64,000 nucleotides of DNA, from NCBI GenBank assembly GCA_937906475.1, contig CALCZA010000113.1:76980-140979 (forward strand), given 5' to 3'. Every line of letters begins with the position of its first letter. Position 1 is the first letter of the stretch. The DNA is from an uncultured bacterium (GTDB lineage Bacteria; Planctomycetota; UBA1135; UBA2386). The position numbers and the translations under genes were made by a program. Shown piece by piece: positions 11,120 through 35,516 of this stretch. Below the pieces are notes generated by a model that saw only the letters and a program-made list of their open reading frames with translations, made no database searches and was not told where the DNA came from.

Positions 11120-12478
11120 ATGGCAGAACACGTCAAACGTGACCTTGTTTCCATCGAGGACCTGAGCACTGCCGAGATCCTCGAACTCTTCCATCACGCC
11201 GACGAATTCAAGGCGAACTTGCACGCGTGGTCGGACCTGTGCCGCGGCGCGATCATGGCGACGCTGTTCTTCGAGCCGAGCACGCGAACGCGCCTGAGTT
11301 TTGAGTCGGCCATGCTGCGTCTAGGTGGCGGAGTCATCAGTGCAGCCGAGTCCGGTTCGACGAGTCGCGTCAAGGGCGAGTCCCTGGCCGACACGGTGCG
11401 CGTCGTTGGTGGCAGCTACGCCGACATCCTGGTCGTCCGCCATCCCGAGGACGGCGCCGCGCGGGTCGCCGCGCGCTATGCGACGGTGCCGGTGATCAAT
11501 GGCGGCGATGGTGCGCACGAGCACCCGACACAAACGCTGTGCGATCTCTACACGCTGTGGAAGGAGAAGGGTCGACTGCAAGGACTCGAAGTCGTGCTCT
11601 GTGGCGACCTTCGTTATTCGCGCACGATTCATTCGTTCTGCTACGCGCTGGCGCGATTCGGCGCGAACATCGTCACGATGCCTTATCCGGGCTTCGAGTT
11701 GCCTGACTACGTGTTGCACCGATTGCGCCGCGATTTCGGCGTGCAAGCGGCAACCGCGTCCGTTGAGGATCTACCGGGATTGGCTGGTAGCAGTAACGCT
11801 GCGGCCTATCTGACGTCGAGCAAGCCACACCAGTTGGCGCTGTTCACGAAGCTCGGCAACGTCGAAGTGTCGCGCATCGATGCGATCTACATGACGCGTG
11901 CGCAGCGCGAACGTCATGAGGGCCAGGACACCAGCGACTACCCTCGCGTGACGCCTTCGACACTCAGTGCCGCGTCCACTAAGGACGCGCGCATCATGCA
12001 TCCGTTGCCGCGCGTCGACGAGATCAGCTACGACCTCGATGATGATCCGCGTTCGATCTACTTCCGTCAGGCAGAACTCGGTGTGCCGATGCGCATGGCG
12101 CTGATGGCCTACTTGATGGGCAAGATCCAATTGCGCGCCAAACAGCCAGACCTGTTGTCAGTCATGCCTGGCTCGGTCATGGCGGGGTCGGTGGGGGCCG
12201 CGGGTTTGCGTTGTCGCAACGAACGCTGCATCACTAACAACGAAGGCGTTCGCTATCTGAAGCGTGACTTCCGTGTATGCGACCAGGAGTCGCCGCCGAC
12301 GTTGTCATGTGGTTTCTGTACGCGAGAAATCGAAGCGCGCTTCGTCGGCAACGGCACCAGCCGCATCGTGTACCGCTACAGCGCGGCCGAAGTGCGCCGT
12401 ATCAAGCCTGCCAATCGGGTCTATTTTGAGTCGGAAGCCCAGGCCGACGCGGCCGGCTTCGCTTGGCAGAAGAGCTAG
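11120..12478 (+). CDS. pyrB: Aspartate carbamoyltransferase with C-terminal zinc-ribbon extension
   Basis: Residues 1-340 are the aspartate carbamoyltransferase catalytic chain, which condenses carbamoyl phosphate with aspartate in pyrimidine synthesis. The carbamoyl-phosphate motif FEPSTRTRLSFE is at 51-62, HPTQTLCDLY at 135-144 and the aspartate-domain HPLPRVDEI at 294-302. The protein is about 140 residues longer than a normal catalytic chain. The extension has C365-x4-C370 and C397-x2-C400, spaced like the zinc domain of the regulatory chain PyrI. The nucleotide-binding half of PyrI is not evident. The last 35 residues (VRRIKPANRVYFESEAQA) resemble the Ada-type metal-binding domain but have lost its cysteines. 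The start overlaps nothing and follows the GTPase gene by 12 bases. Confidence 0.9.
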   Translation: MAEHVKRDLVSIEDLSTAEILELFHHADEFKANLHAWSDLCRGAIMATLFFEPSTRTRLSFESAMLRLGGGVISAAESGSTSRVKGESLADTVRVVGGSYADILVVRHPEDGAARVAARYATVPVINGGDGAHEHPTQTLCDLYTLWKEKGRLQGLEVVLCGDLRYSRTIHSFCYALARFGANIVTMPYPGFELPDYVLHRLRRDFGVQAATASVEDLPGLAGSSNAAAYLTSSKPHQLALFTKLGNVEVSRIDAIYMTRAQRERHEGQDTSDYPRVTPSTLSAASTKDARIMHPLPRVDEISYDLDDDPRSIYFRQAELGVPMRMALMAYLMGKIQLRAKQPDLLSVMPGSVMAGSVGAAGLRCRNERCITNNEGVRYLKRDFRVCDQESPPTLSCGFCTREIEARFVGNGTSRIVYRYSAAEVRRIKPANRVYFESEAQADAAGFAWQKS

Positions 12479-12990: not shown

Positions 12991-15900
12991 ATGATGATCA
13001 TCCGACGCGCTTTCGCTTCCGTGTTTGTGGTTCCGCTCGCACTGCTCGCCTTTGCCGGGTGTAGCGGTGGTGGTGGTGCAACCACGGCCAACGCAACTGC
13101 TGGCGGCACTGTGCAGCCGGAGTTGTCGATGGTCGAATACGGCCGCTTGGCCGATGTCTACGGCTTGCGAGTGACACCCGAAGGCACAACGATCGCGCTG
13201 TTCCAGGGGGACGTGGTTATTGGCGGCAACATCCAGGACCAGCGTCCGACGGAGTCTACTCTTGGCGATGGCGAGGTCCTTTACGACTTCATTGCCGCTG
13301 ACCCCGACACGCTGCAACCGCGACTGTTCATTCCGCGCGACGTGACGAGTGAGGCGTTTGTCGAAGCATTCGCAGCGCTCGACGACGAGTTGCGCTCGGT
13401 CTCGCCGATGTTGTTCGGGGAGGGTGGCGTTGGTATTCCTTACTCCGTCGTGCCGCGTAACGCAGCGATCCGGCTGAGTTTCTCCGCTCCGCTCGGCATC
13501 GATGACACGTTCTTCGTGGAGCGTGGCGAGAGCGGGCAAGTGATCGCGCTTCGCAACACCGAAGCAGTGCAGTTGCTGCGCATTGTTGACGACCCGACCC
13601 AGCCGAATGGCTTTGTTCCGATGCCCGTGCGCATCGTCGTTGGCGACACCCAGTTGATTCTTGATCCGGTCCTGCTCGGCACGGAAGGCCTGCAATACCA
13701 GACCAGCAACAACGCGGCCGGCTTGCCGGCTTCGCCCGATCAAGTGGGCGCCAATATCCGCATTGCGGTTGCCCTCGATGGCCCGCTTGCGATTCCAGGA
13801 CTGCGCGCCAAAGTGAGCGGCGGCATCACTGGTCTAAACAACAGTAGCCGCAACTCGCTCGTTCGTGACTTCCGCTCGGGTAACCAAGCCGATGATTCGG
13901 CGGACATCGCCAGCGGCTTCGTTCGCGACCCGTTGCCGTTGCGGATCGTCGGCCAGATTCCGACGTATCTCGAGCGTGTTGAAAGCGTCAACGCTTTCAC
14001 GCAGGAAGTGACCATCTACAAGAATGGCCTCTCGCACGAGATCGATCGCGGTGACGTGCTCCGTTTCGTTTCGGACAGTTCGGGTGTGCCGTTTGGCAGC
14101 GCCGAAGTTGTTGTCGACCCCGAGGATGACCGCGACAGCCCGCTGGTGCAGCACGTGCGTGTGCGCATCCGTCGCATCCCCGGTCTGGAAGACATCGACC
14201 CGAGCAATCAGTCCGGCTACCCGTCGTCGCTGACCGAACGTGAATCCTGGTTGGTGCAGAACGCGCCGCGCGCCGTGGTGCTTGCCGAGTACACCGCAGG
14301 AGGCCTTGCTGGCCGCGATGATCCGCGCAACTTCCTTGCCTTCACGCCGCAACCCCTCGAATTGAACGGCTACCGGCCGCAGCAAAACGAGTTCGTCTCG
14401 CCTTTCGCTGGCTCGATTGTTCGCTTCACGAAGCCGGTCGACATGGACACGGTCAAGTGGGCCGATACGTTCTTCTTCGCGATGCGCGACCTCAGCACTG
14501 AGGACAGCATCGAGGACTTCATCGCCAATCGTCCGTGGGAAAATAACGGCAACACTGGTCAAGGCATGAACCCGGCGACGTTCGACCTCGCCAAGTACCG
14601 CACGCCCTACCTGATCACGTCGCGCGTCTTCGATGAAGATGGTTCGCAAACGTCGCTGCGCCTGCAGCCGACGACGGGCTTCTATCTCGATAACACGATG
14701 CGTAACGCGCCGTCGGGCGTCGACTACAGCTACTTCTTGCACCTGATCTCGGATTCGCCCGATGGCGGCATTCGCGACTTGGCCGGCAACCCGCTTGACC
14801 TGCAAGGCTCGACCGCCGACCGCAGCAACAGCGTGGTGATCCCGTTCACCGTCGACACCCGCATGAACGGCAACGAACCGGTCTTCGCGGATAACTTGGC
14901 GATCTCGATTGTGCGTCGTTTTGCGTCGCGCGACGAAGACGCCAATCCGAGCTACTTCCTGCCTTCCGAAGTCCAGCCGGCCACGGTGGCTTCGATCGCT
15001 GCGGCTTACCCGCTGGAAGACTTGTTCGGTGGCTTCATCTACCTGGATGGCAAGCTGCTGGCTCGTCCAACGATTCGTGTTCGTGTCACGGCCGACAACC
15101 TCAACCAATCGCCGATCCAACAGCAACCGCCGGTGCCCAACCAGGCCAACCCGCTCGCCTGGTGCCCGCAGTATGTGGTCAGTGGAGCCAACGAATTGCA
15201 GGTCGGCACCAACAGCGCCAACAACCTGGTCACGGCCGGTATCCAGAACCCGCTCAACCCCTATGGCTGCCGTCTGCAGACGTTGTGGCGCGAAGTGGAC
15301 CTGAGCCTGTCGCGCACCGACCCGTTCGACTTCAACCTCGATATCGAGCAGATGTATTGGGCTCCCTACATTGGGACCAACCTGTCGTACGATGAGTTTG
15401 ACCGCGTATCGCTGTGGCTCGGCCACTCAGAATACCGCCCGGTCCCATGTGTCGGTGACTTTAGCTCGCTGCCGTCACTGCCAGACTCGGGTCTGCGCTC
15501 CCAGTTTGAAGGTAACTTCGCTTGGAACCCCCAGCCGACTGGCTCGGGCACCACGGCAGAAAGCCAGGCGCCGCGCGCCGTGGCCTATGTCGATTCGACG
15601 ATGACGATTGATCCGTCGAAGGTTGTGCTCGAGGTCAATGGCATCAACCGCTTCCTGCCGCTACCTGAGTTTCAGGAACCCTACTTCGTTTACCGCGATG
15701 AAACGGTGGTCGAGCAGGGTGGTCTCTCGGACAATAGCATTGGCTCCGACCTCAGTGGCGGCGTCTACGCTCCATACATCCTGTCACCGTTCAGCATGGG
15801 GCAAGGGCGTCGCTGGGTTGATCCGGCAGGCCAGGCTGGCAGCGTGCGCTTCGTTAACTCGTTCTGGAACGACGCTCGCAACCGTCAACTCGCGAGCCCG

Positions 15901-16908
15901 AACGCCGGCGATAACTTCACCGGCGGTCTCGTCGGCAGCATCGCGCTGCCGCTGCTCGCCGACTTCTGGACCTACTGCGATTCGTCGGAGTTGCCAGCCG
16001 GTGGTGGTTACGTCGCACTGGGCACGAACGGTTGGCAGACGGCCGTGACAGTCCAGTCCTCGCCGCAGCCTTCATTCCGTGCTCTCACCGCGGGTCGTGC
16101 GGCGACGCAGTTTAATGCCGCGCTTTGCCGTTCGCCAGGTGACCCGCAGTGGAACACCGCATCGGGTGGCTTTACGCCGACCGGTGGTGGCACGGCGGCT
16201 CGCGACAACACGTTCTACTGGATCATGATGGACGTGCTGAAGCGCCAGACGGTCATTACGAATGGCTTTGTCGACCTCTACAACCCGCACCGTGTTCCGG
16301 AAGGCTTCGCCGATCCGCGTCTCGGTCCGTTCTACCTGGTCAATGGTCAGCCGAACGCGCCGCAGGGTGTGCTGCCGGCGCTCGCGTACGAGTTTGACCC
16401 ACCGCTGTCGCGACTGCCGTCCGGCACGTCGCTGGTGCCGCAGTTCCGCGGTGCGAGTGCCGTCGATCCGTCGCCGTTCTATTGGAACGCCTGGATGAGC
16501 ACGACGTCGGCGCTGTTTCCGCAGCCGAACCCGCCGGCCAACCCTGGCTTCGACGCAAGCATGCGCGACCAACTGAAGCCGACGGCAGACAACTTCGCGC
16601 TCGACCCCTACAAGGCTGGCGACGCTCACATACGTAAGTGGGATTCCCGCTCGATTCCGGGTTCCTCGCAAGCGCGCAACTGGTGGACGCATCTCTACAA
16701 CCGCACGGTCACGAGCTACGTCGAGGACCCGAACGAATTGATGGATCCGGCCTACACGCTGCAGTTCGCGGGCCCGAACGAAACGTTCAACCCGAAGGAC
16801 ATCCGCTACGTCAATTGGCGCTTCATCACCAGTAACAACACGACGGCCAATCCCCCGGTTGCGCCTTCCATCGACACCTTCTCGTTGTCGTTCCGCTGGC
16901 AGCAGTAG
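12991..16908 (+). CDS. Giant lipoprotein, family A, with Ig-like domain (1305 aa)
   Basis: The product starts with a lipoprotein signal (MMIIRRAFASVF...LLAFAGC); the cysteine is followed by SGGGG, which fits export and lipid anchoring. I chose the ATG at 12991 because it begins this signal peptide. The mature protein carries GRLADVY near its start, VPRNAAIRLSFS, and an Ig-like segment of the SbsA/Big_5 type (FVSPFAGSIVRFTKPVDMDTV). It is clearly paralogous to the product at 20981: both contain GRLxDVY, VPRNAAIRLxFS, an IRDFRSGN segment, DIEQMYWxP and YDEFDR followed by LGH, in the same order, and both end in a predicted beta strand. No enzyme motif is visible. A role as a surface or outer-membrane structural protein is inference. 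Confidence 0.85.
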   Translation: MMIIRRAFASVFVVPLALLAFAGCSGGGGATTANATAGGTVQPELSMVEYGRLADVYGLRVTPEGTTIALFQGDVVIGGNIQDQRPTESTLGDGEVLYDFIAADPDTLQPRLFIPRDVTSEAFVEAFAALDDELRSVSPMLFGEGGVGIPYSVVPRNAAIRLSFSAPLGIDDTFFVERGESGQVIALRNTEAVQLLRIVDDPTQPNGFVPMPVRIVVGDTQLILDPVLLGTEGLQYQTSNNAAGLPASPDQVGANIRIAVALDGPLAIPGLRAKVSGGITGLNNSSRNSLVRDFRSGNQADDSADIASGFVRDPLPLRIVGQIPTYLERVESVNAFTQEVTIYKNGLSHEIDRGDVLRFVSDSSGVPFGSAEVVVDPEDDRDSPLVQHVRVRIRRIPGLEDIDPSNQSGYPSSLTERESWLVQNAPRAVVLAEYTAGGLAGRDDPRNFLAFTPQPLELNGYRPQQNEFVSPFAGSIVRFTKPVDMDTVKWADTFFFAMRDLSTEDSIEDFIANRPWENNGNTGQGMNPATFDLAKYRTPYLITSRVFDEDGSQTSLRLQPTTGFYLDNTMRNAPSGVDYSYFLHLISDSPDGGIRDLAGNPLDLQGSTADRSNSVVIPFTVDTRMNGNEPVFADNLAISIVRRFASRDEDANPSYFLPSEVQPATVASIAAAYPLEDLFGGFIYLDGKLLARPTIRVRVTADNLNQSPIQQQPPVPNQANPLAWCPQYVVSGANELQVGTNSANNLVTAGIQNPLNPYGCRLQTLWREVDLSLSRTDPFDFNLDIEQMYWAPYIGTNLSYDEFDRVSLWLGHSEYRPVPCVGDFSSLPSLPDSGLRSQFEGNFAWNPQPTGSGTTAESQAPRAVAYVDSTMTIDPSKVVLEVNGINRFLPLPEFQEPYFVYRDETVVEQGGLSDNSIGSDLSGGVYAPYILSPFSMGQGRRWVDPAGQAGSVRFVNSFWNDARNRQLASPNAGDNFTGGLVGSIALPLLADFWTYCDSSELPAGGGYVALGTNGWQTAVTVQSSPQPSFRALTAGRAATQFNAALCRSPGDPQWNTASGGFTPTGGGTAARDNTFYWIMMDVLKRQTVITNGFVDLYNPHRVPEGFADPRLGPFYLVNGQPNAPQGVLPALAYEFDPPLSRLPSGTSLVPQFRGASAVDPSPFYWNAWMSTTSALFPQPNPPANPGFDASMRDQLKPTADNFALDPYKAGDAHIRKWDSRSIPGSSQARNWWTHLYNRTVTSYVEDPNELMDPAYTLQFAGPNETFNPKDIRYVNWRFITSNNTTANPPVAPSIDTFSLSFRWQQ

Positions 16909-17018
16909 TCAGATTCACATATTCGCTCGACGAGAGTATTAGCTCACCGAGCGAGTCGGCCAGCGGCCGCAAGCTGCTGGCCATGTTCGTCCGCTAGATT
17001 CTCAAAACGAAACCCCCG

Positions 17019-17055
17019 CCTGTTCGCGACTCCCCCCCTCGCGAGCAGGTCGTTT
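17019..17055 (+). terminator. Hairpin terminator after the family A lipoprotein
   Basis: CCTGTTCGCGA (17019-17029) pairs with TCGCGAGCAGG (17039-17049) with one mismatch over a nine-base C-rich loop, followed by TCGTTTG. Confidence 0.65.
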
Positions 17056-17111
17056 GTCCAATCCCCTACTCCCCCAAGGCTACGGCCTCTCCCCCCGCAA
17101 CTTCCCCCGCA

Positions 17112-17140
17112 TTAGCGTCTCATCGCGCTGTGCGTATGAT
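17112..17140 (+). promoter_or_regulatory. Possible sigma-70-type promoter upstream of the family B lipoprotein
   Basis: TTAGCG and TATGAT are separated by 17 bases. The -10 element is good, the -35 weak. It would leave a long leader of about 250 bases before the ATG at 17394. Confidence 0.3.
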
Positions 17141-17393
17141 CCCCATGCCATCGACTTTCAGTCGCAAGTTGGTCTCCGTAAGGATGTCCGCTCGTAGGCT
17201 ATGGATTCGGTGGTGTGGCTTGCGGCCGGCATTGCCTTTGGAACCCCTCTCCCAGATCCGTATGGCGTCATCCTTCAACCAACTGGCAACTTACCAGTCG
17301 GGCGCAGGCCGTCGTCAGATAGCCCCCCGACCGCGAGGCTTGCTCGACATCCGTCGGCAGTTTCGCTCAGCAGTGGGCCAGTTAAATAGCGCC

Positions 17394-20300
17394 ATGACTC
17401 GATTGTCCTCCGCCTGGTTGTTCTCCCTGGCCGTTCTGGTTGTGTTTGCTTCTTGCTCAGGCAGCGGTAGCTCGGCCGGTGGTTCTGGAACGGGGGGCGA
17501 CTTTATTGTCCTCAGCACTGAGCCCAGTGACAACGGCCAGTTGTTCCTGAACGATCCAATTAGCATCGACTTCAGCAACCCGGTCGATCTCGATTCGGTT
17601 GACCTGACGACTTTCAGCTTCCAGGTCTTCGATCAAATCGGCGCCACGGTTGCCGAACCGGTCGCTGGCTACTTCCAGTTGGCCGCCAGCCCAGGGGATG
17701 CTGAGGTTGGTCGCCGCCTGCAATTCGTGCCGGTGTTGCCGACTAATGACCTCTATACCAACGGTGGCTTCCGTCCGGGCCGCACCTACCAGGTGCAACT
17801 CGTCGGTGGCAACATCGTCAATGGCACGGTGATCCGCGATGTGGGGGGCAAGGCGCTTAGCCTCCCGCGCAGTTTCCAATTCTCAACGGCCGAAGGCTCG
17901 ACGCCGGGCATGTTGTTCAGCAACACGCTTGCTGGTGGTCCCCGCCGCGTTGGTTTCGAAATCACGCCAACGCCGGACACGACAGGCGTGGTGCTCAACA
18001 AGCTTGGTGGCCCGCCGGTTGAGATTCGCTTGCTGTTCGATCAACCGTTGAACCCGTCGAGCGCCAACGTGCCGGTGGCGATCGAGACGGACCCGCTGCT
18101 GCGCAACAGCAACAGTCGCGGTCGCGTGTTCATCGAATACGACGACCCGATCTTTGGTGATAACTGGTGGATCCCCGCCGATATCGAACTTGAGTTCAAT
18201 GGTGTCAGCGGCTCGGTCTTGGTGTTGCGTCCACTCGGTGTGCTGCCGAACAACGCGGAGGTCCGCGTGGTCATGGAGCGCACGCTCGAAGATATCTCCG
18301 GTGAGTCCAACGTCGCCAACGTCGCGTTCGAACGTGTCTTCGGCACGTTCCAGACGAAGCGCGCCTACGAGCAGCAATTCGACGGCATGGTCGACAGTTT
18401 CTTGGCATCGTCCAACGTCGATATGGCCGCCGCATTCTCTGAGCCTGCCGCTGAGGTTGGCCCTGGCTTCCTCAAGGCTGGCTTCAACTTTGAAGGCACC
18501 GTCACTGGTGCTGAGTTTGAACCGACGGCGCCTGAGACGGTGCTTAACACGGACTTCACGCTCGTTACTCCGAAGGTCGGCTCGCCCTACAACGTTTCGG
18601 GCGGCGTCTTTAACTTCAATGAGGTGACCATCCCGGTCGGCAAGATCGTTCGTGGTGTCGGCACGAACCCGATGGTTTGGTTGGTGTCGGGAAGCTTTGA
18701 TGTCGCTGGCACGCTGTCCGTTCGCGGTGGCGACGGCCGAGCCGTCAACTCGTCGGGCAACGCCAACGTCGCCAAGCCAGGCGGCTTCGGTGCTTGTGGT
18801 GGTGGTGACGGTGGCGATGGCTCGCCCAGCACGGTCGCTCGTGACCTCGCCGGTGGCACAGGCAACGGCCCTCAGCAGGTTGCAGGCTTAGGTGGCAGTG
18901 GCGGCACCCTGTCCTGCACGGCTGGTTGTGGCCGCGGTGCTGGTGGTGGCGGCGGCTCGCTCGCCACACAGGGTGACCCGAACTATAAGCAGAAGATCGC
19001 CCCGGCTGGCACGCTCGGTGGTGCATCCCCCAACCCCTTTGCGGTCTTCCAACAGCAAACCGGCACCGGTGGTAACGGCTGCCTTGGCGCGGCTGGCACC
19101 GTGACCCGCAACCTTGAAGGTGCGGTCGCTGGCCCGACGGTCTTCGTCGATGCCCGCACCGACAACGACTACTGGGGCGTCGGCGTTCGCTTCGACACCA
19201 ACCTTCGCATCAGCGGTGAGCTCGCGCTTCCGATCGGTGGCGGTGGTGGTGGTGGTGGCGGCGACCTCTCCTACAACGGTGATTGTGGCGTCGACGATCC
19301 GAACTTCGAGAACGACAGTTCTGGTGGTGGCGGTGGTGGCGGTGGTGGCGTGCTGATCGTCAAGGCGCTCGGCCCGATCATTATCCGCGAGTCTGGCACG
19401 ATCACGGCCGATGGCGGCAGCGGTGGTGGTGGTGAGCCGTCGAGCTCCTCGGCCGCTGGTGGCGGTGGTGGCGGTGGTGCTGGTGGCATGGTCGTGCTGA
19501 TGTCAGCCGACAGCATTGAGATCAACGCTCGTGGTGGCACCTACACCCAAAACGACTATGACTTCTCGATCTCTGCTGATGGTGGCGTTTGCGTCACTGG
19601 CACGCAGCCGCCGGTTGTCCAGGGCAAATACCCCGCCAGTGGTACGAACATCACCGCCTCGTTTAGAGATGTCTATGATAGCGCGCCGCTCGGTGGCTTT
19701 GGCGGCATGGGCATCGTTCAGCTGATGGCACCTCCTGGTGACCCGGCGACCTCCATAGACGGCACCAACACGATCCTCGACGACAACATTCGTGTGATAC
19801 TGAATGGCGCCTTGGCGCCGGCGGTCCAGAAGCAGCAGATCCTCGCCTGGCGCGGCTTTCCTGATGCGCTCGGCAACGGTGTCGATGACACCGGCGCAAC
19901 GATTAACATCGGCGACAACGAAGGCGACATTCGCCCGTCGCCGATTCTCTTGCCGACGGCCTTCGCCAGTAAGTCGCGTTTGCGTTCGAAGTGGATTGAC
20001 ACCGGTGCGACAGCTCGTCGTGACGTTGGCAACGCTCCTGACGAATTGCCGCGTGGCATTGTGACGTCGGGTGGTATCGAGACGGGCCCCGCTTACGAGT
20101 GGGCTGGTGTGGAGGCGGATGTGAACAGTATCGCTCTCGGCTACGCCGACTTCGTTGTCGCGCAAGGTCGCGCTTCGGTGATCTTCCCCGAAGCCGTGGC
20201 TGCGACTGGCATCCTATTGATGAACGCCAATTCGACGTTCCTTGGTCGTCCGGCCTACCGCGTGCAACTGACGCAGCCGAGCCTCGGCGCGACCGACGAT

Positions 20301-20798
20301 CGATACAGCCAATACGAAGCCGAGTTGCTCGCAGCGGACGGTTCGGTTGTTGGCAGCCACCGCATCATGGCGCACACCGCTAACGAGATGGTGTTGTCGT
20401 CGGCTGATGGCGCGCTCGATTCCACGGCTGTTGAAGCTCGTGTTGTCGCCAAGTTCTTCGAAGTCATCACCGATGGCCAAGATGGTCTCGGCGGTAGCTA
20501 CATCGGTAACTCCGGTGCTCGCATTCCGGTCGCCAACGTGCGCTTTGGTTTCGCGTTTCACCAGGACCCACAGGATGGCAACGCGGCTCGCTACCCAGCG
20601 ACGCCTGGCACGTTCGCTTACGACATGACTGATCCTGTTGTGCAGGAAGCAGTCCGCGCACTGGGCGCCAACTTCGTGCAGTGGGACATCCTGTTCGACA
20701 CCGCCTTCAAGACGGTTACGCAGGACGGACCACCGAATCTCAATCCCGAATCGCCACGTCCGGAACTTCAGTTCCTGCGCTTGCCGTTCCGGTTCTAA
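17394..20798 (+). CDS. Giant glycine-rich lipoprotein, family B (1134 aa)
   Basis: The ATG at 17394 opens a lipoprotein signal (MTRLSSAWLF...VVFASC) followed by a SGSGSSAGGSG spacer. An Ig-like domain follows at once (STEPSDNGQLFLNDPISIDF), with a second one further on. Around residues 400-440 comes a module FNFNEVTIPVGK...GTNPMVWLVSGSFDVAGTLSV that is shared with the products at 25215, 49213 and 51940. Next is a glycine-rich domain of roughly 250 residues with up to nine consecutive glycines, interrupted by short hydrophobic strands (GVLIVKALG, GMVVLMSAD) and several cysteines. The C-terminal part is mixed alpha/beta and unrecognised. Polyglycine helices packed against beta strands are a plausible fold (inference). 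Confidence 0.85.
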   Translation: MTRLSSAWLFSLAVLVVFASCSGSGSSAGGSGTGGDFIVLSTEPSDNGQLFLNDPISIDFSNPVDLDSVDLTTFSFQVFDQIGATVAEPVAGYFQLAASPGDAEVGRRLQFVPVLPTNDLYTNGGFRPGRTYQVQLVGGNIVNGTVIRDVGGKALSLPRSFQFSTAEGSTPGMLFSNTLAGGPRRVGFEITPTPDTTGVVLNKLGGPPVEIRLLFDQPLNPSSANVPVAIETDPLLRNSNSRGRVFIEYDDPIFGDNWWIPADIELEFNGVSGSVLVLRPLGVLPNNAEVRVVMERTLEDISGESNVANVAFERVFGTFQTKRAYEQQFDGMVDSFLASSNVDMAAAFSEPAAEVGPGFLKAGFNFEGTVTGAEFEPTAPETVLNTDFTLVTPKVGSPYNVSGGVFNFNEVTIPVGKIVRGVGTNPMVWLVSGSFDVAGTLSVRGGDGRAVNSSGNANVAKPGGFGACGGGDGGDGSPSTVARDLAGGTGNGPQQVAGLGGSGGTLSCTAGCGRGAGGGGGSLATQGDPNYKQKIAPAGTLGGASPNPFAVFQQQTGTGGNGCLGAAGTVTRNLEGAVAGPTVFVDARTDNDYWGVGVRFDTNLRISGELALPIGGGGGGGGGDLSYNGDCGVDDPNFENDSSGGGGGGGGGVLIVKALGPIIIRESGTITADGGSGGGGEPSSSSAAGGGGGGGAGGMVVLMSADSIEINARGGTYTQNDYDFSISADGGVCVTGTQPPVVQGKYPASGTNITASFRDVYDSAPLGGFGGMGIVQLMAPPGDPATSIDGTNTILDDNIRVILNGALAPAVQKQQILAWRGFPDALGNGVDDTGATINIGDNEGDIRPSPILLPTAFASKSRLRSKWIDTGATARRDVGNAPDELPRGIVTSGGIETGPAYEWAGVEADVNSIALGYADFVVAQGRASVIFPEAVAATGILLMNANSTFLGRPAYRVQLTQPSLGATDDRYSQYEAELLAADGSVVGSHRIMAHTANEMVLSSADGALDSTAVEARVVAKFFEVITDGQDGLGGSYIGNSGARIPVANVRFGFAFHQDPQDGNAARYPATPGTFAYDMTDPVVQEAVRALGANFVQWDILFDTAFKTVTQDGPPNLNPESPRPELQFLRLPFRF

Positions 20799-20980
20799 TA
20801 GCAAGGGGGGCTTTTGGCCCTCCACGGAAACCCTCGATGCCGCTGGCATCGCGAGTAGCCAATCAAATCCCACCCCTACATTCCTTCCGATATCCGAGAC
20901 CTGTCCCCGGGCTGTCCATACAGCCTTGGGAATATGAAGCGCCAGCGCCTGCCGCTGGCACAGCAACGAAGGCACCTGAC

Positions 20981-23900
20981 ATGATGCAAGCGAATAACCG
21001 ATCCCGAGTTTGGCCGTTGGCCATAGCGCTAGCCGCATTTGCGGCATGTGATGGGAGTACTAAGGATGGAGAGTTCGGCCCTAGCGGCTCACAACCGTCC
21101 CTGGTGAGTGTTGAGATTGGCCGCCTGGTCGACGTCTATGCCTTCCGGCGGATTGATCCGAGCGTTGGCGATCGTCGTCTGCGCATGAATCGCGAGTTGG
21201 AGCTGATTGATCGCGATGTCATGATCAACGCCAACATCGAATCCCAGTCATTGTTCGATGCTGCCGGCAACCTGGCTGCGACGGCTGACTACGAGTTCCT
21301 CCCGTTCGACACGAACGTCGGCCACGAGCAGCTGATCATTCTTTGGGATGATCGTGATGGCCCTGAGCAAGAGAACTTCAGCGGGGCCTTGGCAAGCGCT
21401 CAGACTGGTCTGTCGCAATTGCCGGCTTCGTACCGTTCGCAAAACACGCAGACGCGTCCGATCCCGATTGTGCCGCGCAATGCAGCCATTCGCCTGAAGT
21501 TCAGTGGCAATCTTGATGTGTCGCCGGACTTCTTCGTGGCGAACCCGTCGGCGATCCAGTTGCTCGAGTTCAAGGGCGATCCGGAAGTTGTCCAGCCGGT
21601 CGATGCGTTCCGGATCCTTCAGTATCGTGTTGTGCCGCAAGGCGACTCGATCATTCTCGACACGACCATCCTTGGCGGCGAAGCAGCTGGTGGCATCACG
21701 TCGCCGGGTTTGCCGTTGTCCGCGGACAATGTCACGGCCAACATTCGCATTGCGATCCCAGTTCGTGGCAGCGTGCTGTCGACATTCTACGTTGACCGCG
21801 ACGGTGTCTCTGAACTGAACGGCGTCGATAGCGCCGCGCGCGAGTCCGTCATTCGTGACTTCCGTTCTGGCAACCTCGCGGACGGCCTTGCTGGCCGCCA
21901 ATCCGAGCCGGAAGCACCGAAGATTGTCGGCGCGATGGCCATGGGCATCATCGGCATCGACGCGGTCGCGCGGACCATTACGGTTAACAAGCGCGGCAAC
22001 CTCGTGCCGATCCGCGCCCGCTACCCGTTCGTCGATGGCCCGCTCGATAGCACTGGACTACCACGCGGCCCCCTGGCAATCCCGACGCAACGTGCGTTGC
22101 GCGCTGGCGATTTGTTGACGCAGGATGTCATTGTGCAACTCCTCGACGGCACGTTTGAAACCGTCGGCCTGCGCGCCGAGGTCCTTCAGAACCTCCGCAT
22201 TTCAGCGAACGCGAACGACCCAGCCGTTGGCACGTCCCCGAACGCGCCCGCTGGCGACTCGGGCCAAGGCGAGACCTGGTTGACCGCCGACCTGCGTGTT
22301 GCGACGCTTAGCCCCGGTCGTGACTCGGACGGCAACCGAGTTTCGTTCCGCTTGAACGCGACGCTCGAAGGCGAAGACTGCTCCTTGCGTGCTATCTACG
22401 TTGAGGAAGTGCCGTTTTCGTCTGGTGGCACGGTGCTCACTGACCGTCAGTGGCGCAACCAGTTCGTTCGCATCGAACCGGTTCCTGGCGTGCCGGGTGT
22501 CGACATCGATCCCGACGCGTCGATCTCGATTGAGTTCACCAAACCGATGGACCTCGATCAAGTCGACAACACGTCCAACCTGCTCGTGACCAATGTTGCT
22601 TCGGTTGTCGAGTCGTTCTCGACTCAGATGGATGATCCGAAGCGCGCGACCACGCGCGTCGTGCCGACTCGTCTTAGCGACCTGTCGGGCGACGGTACGA
22701 TCCTGCGCCTGCAACCGCCGATGGGCTTTGCCCACATTGGTTCGCTCGATCCGAGTGCTCCGGCGGAGACTTACAGCGTGCACGTTCGTTTGAAGGAAGG
22801 TGGTGTCACTGACCTCGCTGGCAACTCGCTTGAGGTCTTCGATGACATCGGCAATCCGCAAGAAGCGTGGTCCGTTGACTTCACGCTAGATCTCAACGCT
22901 GCGCCGAACCCGGTCGGTTGGCACACTTACAGGTTTGAAGCTGAGGACGAAGACGGCACGTTGCCAGGTTCGGTCGACATGTTCGGTCAGTTCCGTCTCG
23001 AGAACGGCCGTCTGTTCGGCGCCTCGGGTATTCGCTTTGGCCGCTCGGCCAGCAGCAACAACTTGCAGACTGTGAGTCGCATCAACCGCGGCGAGTGTTG
23101 GGACTCGGGTGACCCGACTGACCCGATCGAGAACCCGTTTGGATTTATTGGCACGACGACCACCCCGAACTCGACCATTCCGCCGGCTGCTGGACCACCG
23201 CTTGGTGTCGTCCCGGTTGATGCGACGGGCGCTCCGCACCCTGGCTTGCTCTACTGGGATCCCCAGATGAGTGACGAGATTGGTCCCCCGGGCGTTCCAC
23301 AGGTCTACCCATATTTCGCGTCGGTGCCACAACCGGTTGGTCGCGTCATCGAACCGCTCAAGCCGCAGGGCTCGCGCATGCAGATGCGCTACCTCGAAGA
23401 TGACTTCACGCTGAGTTATACGCAGCCGTCTGAGTTCGGTCTCGACATCGAGCAGATGTATTGGAGTCCTTTCAACGATGAGACGGTGCTCTACGACGAG
23501 TTTGACCGCTTCACGATGTCGCTGGGCCACGCTCGCATGCGTCCGGATGAACACTGGTTGCTGATCCTCGATCCGATGGATCCCGAGGCTGCATGGTGTG
23601 TGCTCGACTGCGCCAGCATGAACTCGAGTTTGTCGACGGTGTTCGCTGACAACCCGCTTCAGGGTTCGACGATGACTCCGGTCTTCGAAGACCGGATCTA
23701 CTCGATCAACCCGAACGAAGCGTTTCGCGATGGCGCCAACTTCACCTACGTGCCGTTCCCGAAGTTTGACCGTAGCTACACTTGGCGCGATTCGCGTTTG
23801 GTGACGGTCGACGCGACGGGCAATGTCATCGGTCTCGGTGGCGCGCAGAACCCGGACGGCGCCCTTCCGAACGATGACAAGACGGCCAACATCGACTCGC

Positions 23901-24952
23901 CTTGGATCACCAGCGTGGTGGACCCGGAGTTCGCGCAGTTCGGCAGTGGCGTCTGGGTCCAAGACCCGGGTGACTTCGTTGGCTCCAATCAGCGTGACCA
24001 CGACCCGATCGCGTTGCCACTGCTTGTCGACATGAAGCTGTTCCCCGATGACTCGGCGAATGGTCTCGCGTCCGCGACCAATGGCTTCCAAGTTGCCATG
24101 CTTGGCCCGCCGAGCAACTTCGCAGGGGGTGACCCAGGTGGTTACTACGATTCCGTCGCTAGTGGTTGTGGTAATGGTTACCCGTCGTGGCCGCGCGTTC
24201 GCGTGCACGCCTCGGGTGGTTTCGACCTGATCACGGGAGGAGAGATTCGCATCGACCCAGCCAACACGCTGAGCGCCCAGCAGAGCGTCGTCAAGGATGC
24301 TGGTCTGGGAGCCGCGGCGACTGCGCTGTTCCTGGCTCCGGCTGGCGACGGCATGCTGCACTGGTCGCGCGCCGATTTCGTTCGCAAGGTATCGACGACG
24401 ACGTTCGGCTTCTTCGACACGCTGCAGCCACAGCGCTCCGAGCTTGTCGGTCAGAACCCCGAGGCCGGCTTCCCGAACTGGTTGGGCGTCAACCCGCTAC
24501 TTCGCATGACGGATATCTTGGTGCAGCTAGATCCGCCGCAAACGCGTCAGCCTGCTGGCACGGGTGTGCTGGTCGAGTTGCGCGCTTCCGAGACGATCTT
24601 CAACTCGGCGGAGCTCTACAACCCGATCTTCGGTGCCAATGCCAACGACTCGCTGCCGAACCTTGGCAACAACGATCCGGGCCGCGGCAACTTGCTGAAC
24701 GCGCACTACTCGTGTGAGGCATACCGTTACTCGAGCGCCAATGTCGCTTCTGCACCCCGCGTCGTGGCAACGGGCCTGACGTCTTACGTGACCGAAGATG
24801 AGATCACGGACATCAGCAACCCGGCGACGGGCCTCTACCCGCGCTTCTTGAACCCGCGTCTCGTAATGACCAACAACGTCGACGTGAGCCCGACTCTGTC
24901 GCCGTCGTTGCGCAGCATGAGCATCGTTTACCGCCTGGCGCCGGGCCAATAG
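20981..24952 (+). CDS. Giant lipoprotein, family A, paralogue of the 12991 product (1323 aa)
   Basis: The start at 20981 (ATGATG) begins a lipoprotein signal, MMQANNRSRVWPLAIALAAFAAC. The frame is open 100 codons upstream but that part lacks a signal peptide and overlaps the previous gene. The mature chain repeats the landmarks of the 12991 product: GRLVDVY, VPRNAAIRLKFSG, ESVIRDFRSGN, an Ig-like SISIEFTKPMDLDQVDN stretch, DIEQMYWSPFNDE, YDEFDRFTMSLGH, and an end with LRSMSIVYRL. Sequence identity looks moderate rather than high, so the duplication is old. No catalytic motif is seen. It follows the glycine-rich gene by 182 bases on the same strand and is closed by the palindrome at 25015. Confidence 0.85.
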   Translation: MMQANNRSRVWPLAIALAAFAACDGSTKDGEFGPSGSQPSLVSVEIGRLVDVYAFRRIDPSVGDRRLRMNRELELIDRDVMINANIESQSLFDAAGNLAATADYEFLPFDTNVGHEQLIILWDDRDGPEQENFSGALASAQTGLSQLPASYRSQNTQTRPIPIVPRNAAIRLKFSGNLDVSPDFFVANPSAIQLLEFKGDPEVVQPVDAFRILQYRVVPQGDSIILDTTILGGEAAGGITSPGLPLSADNVTANIRIAIPVRGSVLSTFYVDRDGVSELNGVDSAARESVIRDFRSGNLADGLAGRQSEPEAPKIVGAMAMGIIGIDAVARTITVNKRGNLVPIRARYPFVDGPLDSTGLPRGPLAIPTQRALRAGDLLTQDVIVQLLDGTFETVGLRAEVLQNLRISANANDPAVGTSPNAPAGDSGQGETWLTADLRVATLSPGRDSDGNRVSFRLNATLEGEDCSLRAIYVEEVPFSSGGTVLTDRQWRNQFVRIEPVPGVPGVDIDPDASISIEFTKPMDLDQVDNTSNLLVTNVASVVESFSTQMDDPKRATTRVVPTRLSDLSGDGTILRLQPPMGFAHIGSLDPSAPAETYSVHVRLKEGGVTDLAGNSLEVFDDIGNPQEAWSVDFTLDLNAAPNPVGWHTYRFEAEDEDGTLPGSVDMFGQFRLENGRLFGASGIRFGRSASSNNLQTVSRINRGECWDSGDPTDPIENPFGFIGTTTTPNSTIPPAAGPPLGVVPVDATGAPHPGLLYWDPQMSDEIGPPGVPQVYPYFASVPQPVGRVIEPLKPQGSRMQMRYLEDDFTLSYTQPSEFGLDIEQMYWSPFNDETVLYDEFDRFTMSLGHARMRPDEHWLLILDPMDPEAAWCVLDCASMNSSLSTVFADNPLQGSTMTPVFEDRIYSINPNEAFRDGANFTYVPFPKFDRSYTWRDSRLVTVDATGNVIGLGGAQNPDGALPNDDKTANIDSPWITSVVDPEFAQFGSGVWVQDPGDFVGSNQRDHDPIALPLLVDMKLFPDDSANGLASATNGFQVAMLGPPSNFAGGDPGGYYDSVASGCGNGYPSWPRVRVHASGGFDLITGGEIRIDPANTLSAQQSVVKDAGLGAAATALFLAPAGDGMLHWSRADFVRKVSTTTFGFFDTLQPQRSELVGQNPEAGFPNWLGVNPLLRMTDILVQLDPPQTRQPAGTGVLVELRASETIFNSAELYNPIFGANANDSLPNLGNNDPGRGNLLNAHYSCEAYRYSSANVASAPRVVATGLTSYVTEDEITDISNPATGLYPRFLNPRLVMTNNVDVSPTLSPSLRSMSIVYRLAPGQ

Positions 24953-25014
24953 GGATCGCCAAGCTGCTCGGCTAACGCTGGGCGACTTGTCAGGAGAGAC
25001 GTTGTTCGCGACGC

Positions 25015-25051
25015 CGCAAACGGGCCGCCCATGGGCGGCCCGTTTGCGTTT
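25015..25051 (+). terminator. 34-bp perfect palindrome, probable bidirectional terminator
   Basis: Positions 25015-25048 form a perfect palindrome with arms of about 15 bases (CGCAAACGGGCCGCC and its complement) around CATG, followed by TTT. It would fold into a very stable hairpin in either RNA. It sits 62 bases after the lipoprotein stop. Confidence 0.85.
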
Positions 25052-25214
25052 GAGCCCATGCGCCATCAGGTGAGCTAAGAACCGTTCTGCTCGATAGTTC
25101 CCCGTGGGGGGGGGCGCGCGTTGTCTTATGTTGGGGAGTGAATCGCTCTGCGGCTCGTTTCGGCAGTTGCCTTTGGGGCAAGCTGCCCGATCTCCGATAT
25201 CATTGGCTACAAGC

Positions 25215-27074
25215 ATGCGATCCCATTGGCCGAAACTCCTACTACTGATGCCCCTGCTCGCAGGGCTGGCAGGCTGTTGGGGGAAGAGTCCGGGGCGAGC
25301 CGCGCTAACGGTCGATCGCACTTCGCCCGCTCTTGGCAATCGCAGCGCACCGCTACTGCTTAACGACGCGGTCACCATCTACTTCTCCGAGCCAATTCGG
25401 CCGACGTCGGTGACCGAGGACTCGGTGACCTTGATCGACGAGAACGGCCATCAGGTGCCCGGAGCGCCGCTCAGGGTTGGCACGGATTGGGTGTCGTGGG
25501 TGCCAAAGCCACCACTCGCCAAGGATCTGAGCGATGGCTCTTTCCGACCTGGCGGCCATTACCATCTGGTGCTCGCCGGCATGCCGCGGGTCGATCGGAT
25601 CCGGTCGCAGAACGGTCGTTCGCTCGATCGTCGCATCTCGTTCGATATCTACGTCGCGGATCACGGTCAGGCTCCAGCCGGGTTGCCGGCCATCCTACGG
25701 CCCAGTGCAAGCGGCCTGCCCTTGGTATTGCGCACGTCTGATGTGCCGCAGCAAGTGGCCGCCGATGACCCGCGGCTGCAGTTGCACTTCACGCTGCCGG
25801 TCTTGCCGTCCAGTTTGCAGCGCGAAGCCTTCCGCATCCGCGTCCTACATGCAGGTGTCTTGGTGCCCCGTTCCGTCCGGGTTGTAACTTCGCCCCTGGA
25901 TGACCCGGACTTCCCGGGCAGTACGGTCGAGATTGATCTCGGTTCGCTGCCTGAGCATGAAGATGGCACGCGCCGAGCGCTCGTCGACGGTGACTTCATC
26001 AGCGTCAAGATGCTCAGTAATTCTGGCCTCGTGGATTACGCGGGCCGGCCACCGTTGCCGTCGGCGACGGCAGACACGCAGTTCTGGAGTGTCGTCGCTG
26101 GGCGCAGCGTGCCCGTGTGCGAATGGCCCGCCGACGAACACAGCTACGTCAGTGCAGACGAATTGAGTCCCGGGTTTGAAGTTCGCGGGTCGAATATCGT
26201 GCCGCGTGTCCGCGTGGAAGCTGGCAACGGTAGCCTCGGCGTCTTCCGACCGATCGGCGACATGACGCTGCGGCCTGGCGAGATGTTTGATCGCGGCGAT
26301 GGCAAGCTGGTGGCCAGTTCCGGCAGCGAGTTCCACTTCTCGTCGATCGAGGTCCCCAAAGGCGTCAAAGTCACTGTGGACGCAACGGCTGGTCCGGTTC
26401 GGCTACTTAGTTGTGGTGGGGTTCGTATTGACGGTTCGGTCCAGCTGATTGGGCCGACTTCGATCTTGCCTACCCATCCATTCATTGCGCAGCCGGTTCA
26501 GGACCTGATCGATGTCGTGCGCGTGAGCATTGTGGCTGCAGGTGACCTGCAGGTGCGCGGCGACATCGAGAGCACCACAGCCATCTCCGAATCGGAGACG
26601 GCATTGGTGCTCGCTACTGCCGGCTGGCTACGCCTGCACGGCAGCCTGCCATTCCAGAGCGTGTTGGTTGCCGATGCTCGCGGTGGCGAATCGACCTCGC
26701 GCATTGAAGGAGTCCGCGGCCAATCCCGGCCCTATCCGGCATCCTTCGAAGTTGGGCTCGCCGAAGGATCGGACTTCGAGGTGGAAGGAGTGCTGCCCTG
26801 GCGCCGCTTGCCGCCGCACTTGGACAGCGGCCTGCTGCAGATTGGCGGCCAGTCGGGTGACTTGTCGATCGTCTGGCAGTCGACCAGCGCCGATGCAATT
26901 CGGGGTGAGTTCCCAGATCTGACCGAAGGGCGCCTCGGTCGCTGGCAATACGCGCGTGATCGCGATGTTCTGGTCGCCGGGGGTGGGGCTTTTCTTCGTA
27001 TGCGCATCACCGCTCGCGTGCGCCACGGGGAGCCGCTGCCGAGTCTTAGTGGATTGCGTCTCGTCGAGAACTAA
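25215..27074 (+). CDS. Lipoprotein, short family B member with Ig-like domain (619 aa)
   Basis: The ATG at 25215 starts a textbook lipoprotein signal, MRSHWPKLLLLMPLLAGLAGC. An Ig-like domain of the SbsA/Big_5 type follows (LLLNDAVTIYFSEPIRPTSV). A second such segment is near residue 190 (DDPRLQLHFTLPVLPSSL). The family B module FHFSSIEVPKGVKVTVDA...CGGVRIDGSVQLIG is at about residues 375-415, but the long glycine-rich domain seen in the 17394, 49213 and 51940 products is missing. It may therefore show the minimal core of the family. The prepilin peptidase gene begins 161 bases downstream. Function is not known; outer-membrane anchoring is inferred from the lipobox without an aspartate at +2 (Trp instead). 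Confidence 0.82.
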   Translation: MRSHWPKLLLLMPLLAGLAGCWGKSPGRAALTVDRTSPALGNRSAPLLLNDAVTIYFSEPIRPTSVTEDSVTLIDENGHQVPGAPLRVGTDWVSWVPKPPLAKDLSDGSFRPGGHYHLVLAGMPRVDRIRSQNGRSLDRRISFDIYVADHGQAPAGLPAILRPSASGLPLVLRTSDVPQQVAADDPRLQLHFTLPVLPSSLQREAFRIRVLHAGVLVPRSVRVVTSPLDDPDFPGSTVEIDLGSLPEHEDGTRRALVDGDFISVKMLSNSGLVDYAGRPPLPSATADTQFWSVVAGRSVPVCEWPADEHSYVSADELSPGFEVRGSNIVPRVRVEAGNGSLGVFRPIGDMTLRPGEMFDRGDGKLVASSGSEFHFSSIEVPKGVKVTVDATAGPVRLLSCGGVRIDGSVQLIGPTSILPTHPFIAQPVQDLIDVVRVSIVAAGDLQVRGDIESTTAISESETALVLATAGWLRLHGSLPFQSVLVADARGGESTSRIEGVRGQSRPYPASFEVGLAEGSDFEVEGVLPWRRLPPHLDSGLLQIGGQSGDLSIVWQSTSADAIRGEFPDLTEGRLGRWQYARDRDVLVAGGGAFLRMRITARVRHGEPLPSLSGLRLVEN

Positions 27075-27235: not shown

Positions 27236-28207
27236 ATGGGCACGGCGGTGTTCGAGGTCGGAGCAGCTCTCTTTGGTGGGTGCATCGGCTCATTCCTGAA
27301 CGTCGTCATTTGGCGACTACCGCAGGAGGACCCTGCACGTCGCACCCTCGGCGGCAGGTCTCACTGCCCAAGCTGCGGTGTGCAGATTCGATGGTTCGAC
27401 AACGTACCGATACTCGGCTGGCTGCTCCTGCGCGGCAAAGCACGCTGCTGCGGCAATTCGATCTCGCCGCGCTATCCGTTCGTCGAGTTGCTGACCGCCG
27501 CGCTGTTCTACGCGTTGGCATCGTGGCCGCCCTTCGGCTCCGTGTTCCTGACGGATGCCGCGACCGGCTTGATGTCGATCGACATGGCTGCGATGGGCGC
27601 GTTCGTTGCGAGTGTGATCTTCGCATCGATGCTCGTGGCCCTGACCTTTATCGACTTCGACACGTATCTCTTGCCCGACGCGTTGACCAAACCCGGCATG
27701 GTGATCGGCTTGGTCGCAGGCACCTGGCCCGGTGTTGCCGGCGTGATCTCGCCCGACCCGATGGTGTCGCTCGAACTGCGTCAGTTGCTGGCGAGCTTGG
27801 TCGGCTTGTTGGTTGCCGGCGGCGTGACGTGGGGTGTGCGCATCGCGGGCAGCGCCGTCTTCAAGAAGGAAGCGATGGGCTTTGGCGACGTCAAGCTGAT
27901 GGCAATGATCGGCGCGTTCGTCGGTTGGCAAGGCGGCTTGTTGACGTTGTTCCTCGGTTGTGTTTTCGGCGCCATCGTCGGCAGTGTCCAGACGTTGCGC
28001 AGCGGCAATGCTCGCATCCCATTCGGTCCGTATTTGGCTATGGGGGCGATCGTCACGCTGTTTGGTCGAGACTCCATCCTCACTTGGTTGTTCGTCGACT
28101 GGCCCGAGTGGCAGCGCAACAATCCATCGTCGGTCATGGTCATGCTGGCTATCGGCATGGCTGCTTTGATTGGTCTCTTATGGGTCATCCGCCGGGGGCG
28201 TCGTTGA
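27236..28207 (+). CDS. pilD: Prepilin peptidase (type IV leader peptidase, A24 family)
   Basis: The 323-residue polytopic membrane protein cleaves the leader of prepilins such as the one at 34824 and usually N-methylates the new first residue. The N-terminus GCIGSFLNVVIWRLP is typical. The catalytic aspartates are in IDFDTYLLPD (D140/D142 region) and GFGDVKLM (D218). The cytoplasmic methyltransferase-associated loop has C44-x2-C47, but the second pair, normally C-x2-C, reads ARCC (C71, C72), so the first cysteine of that pair is replaced by alanine. Whether metal binding survives is unclear. A longer overlapping frame on the same strand is a shadow: it lacks membrane segments and family motifs. 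Confidence 0.93.
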   Translation: MGTAVFEVGAALFGGCIGSFLNVVIWRLPQEDPARRTLGGRSHCPSCGVQIRWFDNVPILGWLLLRGKARCCGNSISPRYPFVELLTAALFYALASWPPFGSVFLTDAATGLMSIDMAAMGAFVASVIFASMLVALTFIDFDTYLLPDALTKPGMVIGLVAGTWPGVAGVISPDPMVSLELRQLLASLVGLLVAGGVTWGVRIAGSAVFKKEAMGFGDVKLMAMIGAFVGWQGGLLTLFLGCVFGAIVGSVQTLRSGNARIPFGPYLAMGAIVTLFGRDSILTWLFVDWPEWQRNNPSSVMVMLAIGMAALIGLLWVIRRGRR

Positions 28208-28328: not shown

Positions 28329-28973
28329 ATGAAGTTCCGTAAGGCATTACTCATTCTTTCGCTCGTAGCCACGTCGCTGTCGACGAGTTGCACGACTCGT
28401 TACCAGGACATGCTGAAGGATCGCGACGACCAGATCCGTTCGCTCAACGGCGACCTTGCGCGCATGCGCGGCGAGGGGGAAGAACTGCAGAACCGTTTGA
28501 ACGCGGTGCCGCGTCCAGTGAATGCGACGACGGCCCGCACCGAACCTTCGAGTTTGCTCAACGATCTGCAGCGTGACCTTGGCAGCGATGCCGACGTCAG
28601 CTACCGCCGCGGCCGCATCAGCATTGGCGTCAACAACCGCGTCACCTTCTCATCGGGTAGCAACTCGCTGAAGAACTCGTCGCACAAGGTGCTGCGTGGT
28701 GTCGCATCGGTGCTGAAGTCGCAGTTCTCTGGTCGCCGGTTCTACGTCGAGGGTCACACCGATACGGACCCGATTGTGAAGACTAAGGATAAGTATTCCA
28801 GCAACCGGGACCTGTCGATGCAGCGTGCCGATTCGGTTGCCAAGTACCTGATCTCGCAAGGCGTGCCGGAGTCCGCGATCGTGACGGTCGGCTACGGCCA
28901 GTTTGATCCGTTGGATCGCAGCAAGAAGTCTGCGAACCGCCGGGTTGAGATTGTCGTCGGCGACATTTTCTAA
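28329..28973 (+). CDS. OmpA/Pal-like peptidoglycan-binding lipoprotein
   Basis: The 214-residue protein starts with a lipoprotein signal (MKFRKALLILSLVATSLSTSC), a short coiled-coil stretch (about residues 27-60, DMLKDRDDQIRSLNGDLARM) and a C-terminal OmpA-like domain (about 95-212). That domain has VEGHTDTDP, NRDLSMQRADSVAKYL and NRRVEIVV, the residues that in this family bind the diaminopimelate of peptidoglycan. It should tie the outer membrane to the wall. The ATG has a strong Shine-Dalgarno AGGGAGG six bases upstream. It lies 121 bases after the prepilin peptidase gene and could be read with it. Confidence 0.93.
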   Translation: MKFRKALLILSLVATSLSTSCTTRYQDMLKDRDDQIRSLNGDLARMRGEGEELQNRLNAVPRPVNATTARTEPSSLLNDLQRDLGSDADVSYRRGRISIGVNNRVTFSSGSNSLKNSSHKVLRGVASVLKSQFSGRRFYVEGHTDTDPIVKTKDKYSSNRDLSMQRADSVAKYLISQGVPESAIVTVGYGQFDPLDRSKKSANRRVEIVVGDIF

Positions 28974-34736: not shown

Positions 34737-34813
34737 GAGCGGCTTTGAGGAAGGAAAGAGAGTTAGGGAAACGAAACGCGACCACGTCGGTCGCACCAAT
34801 CAAAGGTTGTCAT

Positions 34814-34817
34814 GGAG
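34814..34817 (+). promoter_or_regulatory. Shine-Dalgarno GGAG deciding the prepilin start
   Basis: GGAG lies six bases before the ATG at 34824. It overlaps the first codons of an in-frame ATG at 34812, which itself lacks a ribosome binding site. Confidence 0.7.
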
Positions 34818-34823
34818 AACCAA

Positions 34824-35516
34824 ATGTCTAAGCGGGAACAGGGTTTTACCCTCATCGAACTGATGATCGTTGTTGCGATCATCGCCATCATTGCATCTAT
34901 CGCGATTCCGAACCTTCTCAGCGCGCGTCTGAACGCCAACGAGTCGGCCGCAATCGCGACCTTGAAGAACATCTCATCGGGCCAGTCGCAGTGCCAAGCT
35001 TCGGGTGTCGTTGACGCCAACAGCAACGGCCAAGGCGAATACGGCTTTTTCGGCGAGTTGTCGGGCCGCACTCTAATCCGCGGTAGCACCCAGACGATTG
35101 TGCCGCCGGTGCTCTCGGCTGCCTTCGGCAACGTCGCCGCTGCACGTGTTTCGCGCTCGGGCTACATCTTCCAGATGTTCCTGCCGGACACCGCGGGTGC
35201 CGGTATCGAGGAAGACCCGACCGGTGGGGACATTGACAACGGCAACGGTGTCGACCCGGGCCAATGTGAAGTGCTCTGGTGCTGCTACGCCTGGCCGGCA
35301 ACCGCTGGCAACAGCGGCAACCGCACGTTCTTCATCAACCAGACGGGCGACGTTCTCGCTACGAACGGTGCCACAACGAAGTACAGCAACTCGGTGCCTA
35401 CGGTGCCGACCTACGAAGTTGCCTTCTCGGGTGCCGTTGGCACCACCACGATGGGCGTCTCGGTTGCAGCGAACACGCTCGGCAAGGACGGCAACACCTG
35501 GGTCGTCGTCCAATAG
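34824..35516 (+). CDS. Major type IV prepilin / pseudopilin
   Basis: The 230-residue product begins MSKREQG followed by the cleavage site and the FTLIELMIVVAIIAIIASIAIP helix, with the essential Glu at mature position 5. The leader of seven residues fits type IVa prepilins. The mature domain is about 223 residues with four cysteines (SQCQA, GQCEVLWCC) and the C-terminal segment NRTFFINQTGDVLAT. A GspG-type calcium site is not obvious. It ends the pilus cluster and is followed by a very strong terminator, which fits a highly expressed structural subunit. It is probably cleaved by the peptidase at 27236. Confidence 0.93.
   Translation: MSKREQGFTLIELMIVVAIIAIIASIAIPNLLSARLNANESAAIATLKNISSGQSQCQASGVVDANSNGQGEYGFFGELSGRTLIRGSTQTIVPPVLSAAFGNVAAARVSRSGYIFQMFLPDTAGAGIEEDPTGGDIDNGNGVDPGQCEVLWCCYAWPATAGNSGNRTFFINQTGDVLATNGATTKYSNSVPTVPTYEVAFSGAVGTTTMGVSVAANTLGKDGNTWVVVQ

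Follow-up and report, generated by a model that had tools for sequence, protein, structure and literature searches.

Four predicted lipoproteins within a type IV pilus locus

The window, that is, the whole stretch of 64,000 nucleotides analyzed here, comes from a Planctomycetota metagenome-assembled genome (4.85 Mb in 254 contigs) and carries four genes, A1, B1, A2, and B2 (Table 1). Their alternating order on one strand, the plus strand, and their coordinates agree with the original prediction, and none of the four open reading frames contains an internal stop. The array is flanked on the left by rpoB-rpoC and, closer in, coaX-GTPase-pyrB, and on the right by pilD-ompA-pilT-pilB-pilC-TPR-pilin, which places it within a type IV pilus locus whose pilus neighbors are kept in relatives. 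The pilD gene encodes the sole prepilin peptidase detected in the genome. A1 was found in all 41 of the nearest genomes.

Table 1. Features of the array and its surroundings (positions in the window)
Feature	Position	Strand	Description
pyrB	11120..12478	+	Aspartate carbamoyltransferase; conserved left neighbor of the cluster
A1	12991..16908	+	1305-aa predicted lipoprotein; N-terminal half with Ig-like folds, conserved C-terminal region with motif DIEQMYWAP
B1	17394..20798	+	1134-aa predicted lipoprotein; two N-terminal Ig-like (Big_5) domains, Gly-rich middle, C-terminal beta domain
A2	20981..24952	+	1323-aa predicted lipoprotein; A1 paralogue; Asp at +2 after the lipobox Cys
Palindrome	25015..25048	+	Perfect, 34 nt, 15-bp stem, terminator-like; between A2 and B2
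B2	25215..27074	+	619-aa predicted lipoprotein; reduced B-family paralogue, Gly-rich half absent
pilD	27236..28207	+	Prepilin peptidase; conserved right neighbor of B2
ompA	28329..28973	+	OmpA-family (peptidoglycan-binding) protein; conserved gene after pilD
pilT	29626-30744	+	Type IV pilus system core
pilB	30748-32463	+	Type IV pilus system core
pilC	32524-33765	+	Type IV pilus system core
Pilin	34812..35516	+	Type IV pilin-like; carries an N-terminal methylation motif
C1	48937-51867		Tandem Big_5, Gly-rich predicted lipoprotein; homologous to C2, distantly to B1
C2	51940-54624		Tandem Big_5, Gly-rich predicted lipoprotein; homologous to C1, distantly to B1

Sequence patterns identified a signal peptide and a lipobox Cys in each protein (FAGC in A1, FASC in B1, FAAC in A2, and LAGC in B2) and a lipobox in most of their orthologues, so the lipoprotein signals predicted for all four were recovered. 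The description of the proteins as giant does not extend to B2, a 619-aa protein that lacks the Gly-rich half of B1. The Ig-like segments announced for three of the proteins were secured for B1, in which Big_5 (PF13205) scored 30.5 bits, over the curated cut-off of 23.6 bits; B2 (23.5) and A2 (20.8) scored slightly below it. A1 itself had no Big_5 match in Pfam, and 10 of the 15 A-family members matched at E<=0.1. Beyond Big_5, the A proteins had no match in Pfam, NCBIfam, or the PDB.

A1 and A2 are homologous along their entire length (blastp, 25% identity over ~1440 columns, E 4e-52; profile-profile comparison, E 6e-148 over 1097 columns). B1 and B2 were linked in blastp across 127 aa only (E ~1e-4) and in profile-profile comparison across 393 columns of the N-terminal half (E 6e-32), the shared part running through two Ig-like domains into the first part of the beta region that follows. 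Homology between A and B was undetected in profile-profile comparison, the best probabilities being 42-72% over short stretches only, and a common origin of A and B was unsupported. The assignment of the genes to two families, as first proposed, is thus upheld.

Structural models were built on alignments of 14-30 sequences from one family. The AlphaFold model of A1 (residues 140-1305) was weak (pLDDT 55.5, pTM 0.52) and good only at ~157-640, and that of B1 was also weak (pLDDT 53), with good regions at the C-terminal beta domain and at both N-terminal domains. Foldseek matched the B1 model mainly to Ig-like folds, the better matches being LdtMt2 and CopC, and returned no match for the A1 model at E<0.001. 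Sequence searches of solved structures gave nothing meaningful.

Distribution of the cluster

Of the 151 genomes of the class, 148 were matched by the A profile; outside the class, it gave only partial matches, in 55 of 230 genomes. The order pyrB-A1-B1-A2-B2-pilD was found at all sufficiently complete loci of family f1, one variant (L048) having two A1 genes, and f6 and f3 have A1-B1-A2-B2, or this order with an additional B1. Families f2, f4, f7, and f8 mainly carry pyrB-A-B1-B2-pilD; A-A-B1-B2 occurs in f5, in one f7 genome, and in some f8 genomes, and one genome has at least four A copies. Outside the class, A-B1-B2-pilD was found in f24 and f47 and an A gene with two B-like genes after it in f11, and the cluster adjoins pilD at five loci (L093, L099, L100, L102, and L103). 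The pilD gene of one genome, G167 (L093:1-1083), was matched as two pieces, one with an in-frame TGA. One A-like lipoprotein between pyrB and pilD-ompA is found in f15 and f43. In Planctomycetota outside the class (L155, L160, L162, and L164), a single A-like lipoprotein of ~820-870 aa was observed between pyrB and pilD, which is possibly the ancestral form of the cluster. As judged from gene content and order, the cluster pyrB-[A-B1-B2]-pilD-ompA is present nearly throughout one class and, in more diverged form, in a small number of families elsewhere in the phylum.

A and B1 are adjacent in almost every genome examined, in line with the expectation that A and B would co-occur in other genomes. 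In G085, a single-contig genome of 7.7 Mb, a second A-B1 pair, accompanied by neither B2 nor pilD, lies ~2 Mb from the main cluster (L112, L113). Within the class, A occurs without B at a dozen or more loci (L034, L035, L041, L177-L185, and L187), in one case as two A genes in tandem.

Origin of the alternating order

The A tree was rooted by the outgroups f11, f24, f47, and f71 in place of midpoint rooting. A1 and A2 together formed one clade (1.0) that contained an A1 clade (1.0) and an A2 clade (1.0), each with f1, f3, and f6, and the A duplications in f5, f7, and f8 were separate. In the B tree (41 sequences, f1 to f8 and f24), B1 and B2 fell on opposite sides of one branch with a support of 100, and both clades recur in almost all the families surveyed, one of them from outside the class. 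A tree constrained to unite B1 and B2 of f1, f3, and f6 was 103.8 log units worse (p-AU 1.8e-5). The B2 of f24 lay closest to the B1 side, on a long branch, and retained a Gly-rich region, which is consistent with B2 being a reduced B copy. In these trees, the B1/B2 split predates the families of the class and one family outside it, and the A1/A2 split is found only within f1, f3, and f6. The B half of the supposed A-B unit was therefore already two genes, and the A-B-A-B order results from copying of A alone. The duplication of A took place in the ancestor of f1, f3, and f6, and the copy, A2, now lies between B1 and B2, giving A1-B1-A2-B2. Trees and gene orders alike show that the array derives from an ancient planctomycete cluster, pyrB-[A-B1-B2]-pilD-ompA-(pilT-pilB).

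The original prediction had instead supposed that a two-gene unit was copied whole, with products working as A1-B1 and A2-B2 pairs. The alternation itself, the proximity of A to B1 in almost every genome, and the second A-B1 pair of G085 (L112) would fit such an event; however, the AU test rejected sister B1 and B2 genes in the array families, the A1/A2 split is younger than the B1/B2 split, families with a single A have both B1 and B2, solitary A copies exist, and a hairpin separates A2 from B2. Whole-unit duplication is rejected as the origin, and this explanation as a whole is highly improbable; the pairing of A1 with B1 and of A2 with B2 is unsupported as well, as most other families have A-B1-B2 and solitary A copies occur. 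The array can serve as an example that an alternating gene order need not imply block duplication.

Intergenic distances and the palindrome bear on how the genes may be expressed. The gaps within the f1 arrays span 160-485 bp, and the median gaps are ~400 bp for pyrB-A and ~13 bp for PilD-OmpA, negative gaps due to over-long ORF starts being left out. In six genomes of f4, f5, and f8 (L076, L118, L119, L128, L129, and L081), the stop of B2 and the start of pilD overlap by 1-4 nt. Hairpins with stems of at least 10 bp were found at the place matching the A2-B2 palindrome in five other relatives examined. These elements suggest that A1-B1-A2 and B2-pilD-ompA could be two expression units in the array lineage. 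A scan for Sigma-70-type promoters gave fewer sites than expected by chance.

Proposed role and alternatives

A1, B1, and A2 keep pace with PilD and OmpA in divergence (for instance, 49/47/41% against 43/46% to f6), and B2 diverges faster. A1, B1, and A2 diverging no faster than PilD argues for a constant structural role rather than for diversifying adhesins, and the three look like core envelope parts. Among orthologues with a detected lipobox, Asp at +2 after the lipobox Cys was observed in 18 of 30 A2 proteins and 1 of 26 A1 proteins. In E. coli, Asp at +2 retains lipoproteins in the inner membrane, a rule that is E. coli's and may not be the host's. By this analogy, A1 and A2 may be sorted to different places.

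The explanation that we lean toward, and hold to be moderately probable, joins the duplication of A alone within the ancient cluster to a role of the products as outer-membrane surface lipoproteins tied to a pilus/secretion locus. Both the outer-surface location and the link to pili are inferred, on the basis of lipobox, domain architecture, and locus. The A and B products would be outer-membrane lipoproteins with Ig-like, Gly-rich (beta-solenoid-like), and beta-sandwich domains facing outward, constant structural parts of the cell surface that are co-produced with the pilus/secretion assembly genes; they might, for instance, form a scaffold or docking layer at the exit of pili or secreted fibers. 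The adjacency of A and B1 almost everywhere and the second pair in G085 make a joint role of the two likely, probably in one assembly, and the loci with A but no B indicate that the partnership is not obligatory. A1 and A2 would be specialized copies of one role and not halves of two A-B pairs. The long gaps within the f1 arrays, the solitary A copies, and the weak models (pLDDT 53-56) count against this explanation. Against a pilus role, pyrB and a GTPase gene are conserved beside the cluster too, so that its place next to pilD could reflect inherited gene order, and many Planctomycetota have pilD without the cluster, which is absent from most of the 40 pilD loci outside the class, and co-occurrence of the cluster with pilus genes was not borne out across the phylum. 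The PilY1 domain PF05567 had no Pfam match in A or B; a genome search with it also gave none, though neither did the control profiles.

If the position near pilus genes reflects inherited gene order only, A and B could instead form a proteinaceous S-layer or surface coat independent of pili. Big_5 is the Ig-like type found in the S-layer protein SbsA, and Ig-like segments of an S-layer-associated type had been noted in the original prediction; the B1 model weakly matched SbsC in Foldseek (E 7e-5, TM 0.2), and the genes are near-universal in the class, with the unrelated pyrB beside them. Nevertheless, Big_5 is widespread and the S-layer hint found no other support, B1 matched other Ig-like domains better, all four proteins are predicted lipoproteins, and no known S-layer anchor was seen, which leaves this alternative unlikely, though worth keeping in view. 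Ordinary adhesins, that is, surface lipoproteins binding polysaccharides or other attachment substrates, would suit the combination of Ig-like, Gly-rich, and C-terminal beta domains, and a region of A does recur in other proteins, ~540 aa long, from genomes of the same family. The slow, machinery-like divergence and near-universality are unlike niche adhesins, however, and beyond Big_5 the databases offered no match for A, so that we regard this role as rather improbable.

Extending the favored outer-surface role, we tentatively suggest, as a doubtful prospect, that A, B1, and B2 constitute a core envelope complex of Planctomycetota, class-wide and so far undescribed, that would give type IV pili or secreted fibers a port or scaffold on the outer surface, with A1 and A2 specialized in one lineage. 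A literature search found no paper on the A/B proteins. Families that occur in 98% of the sampled class genomes, have long been tied to a pilus locus, and evolve like machinery lack a described function. They are candidates for contributing to the unusual planctomycete cell surface and provide a short, testable gene list.

Comparison with known systems

Within the window, C1 and C2 resemble B1 in combining Big_5 with a Gly-rich middle and in being tandem genes, and the B1 profile scored 77-78 bits on them; they differ from B1 and B2 in lying outside both clades of the B tree and 22 kb downstream of the array. Type IV pilus accessory proteins include PilY1 and outer-membrane lipoproteins such as PilF/TsaP. 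The A and B proteins differ from these in having no Pfam match to them and in being limited to some Planctomycetota, but they are similar in that the array lies in a pilD-pilT-pilB-pilC locus and encodes predicted outer-membrane lipoproteins. Big_5, the SbsA-type Ig-like domain, spans only ~100 of the 600-1300 residues of the array proteins, the remainder having no Pfam/NCBIfam match; it is above the cut-off in B1, with near-threshold copies in A2, B2, and most A-family members. Whereas the A and B proteins are predicted lipobox-anchored members of two unrelated families, they share with S-layer proteins such as SbsA and SbsC the presence of Ig-like domains in a large exported protein.
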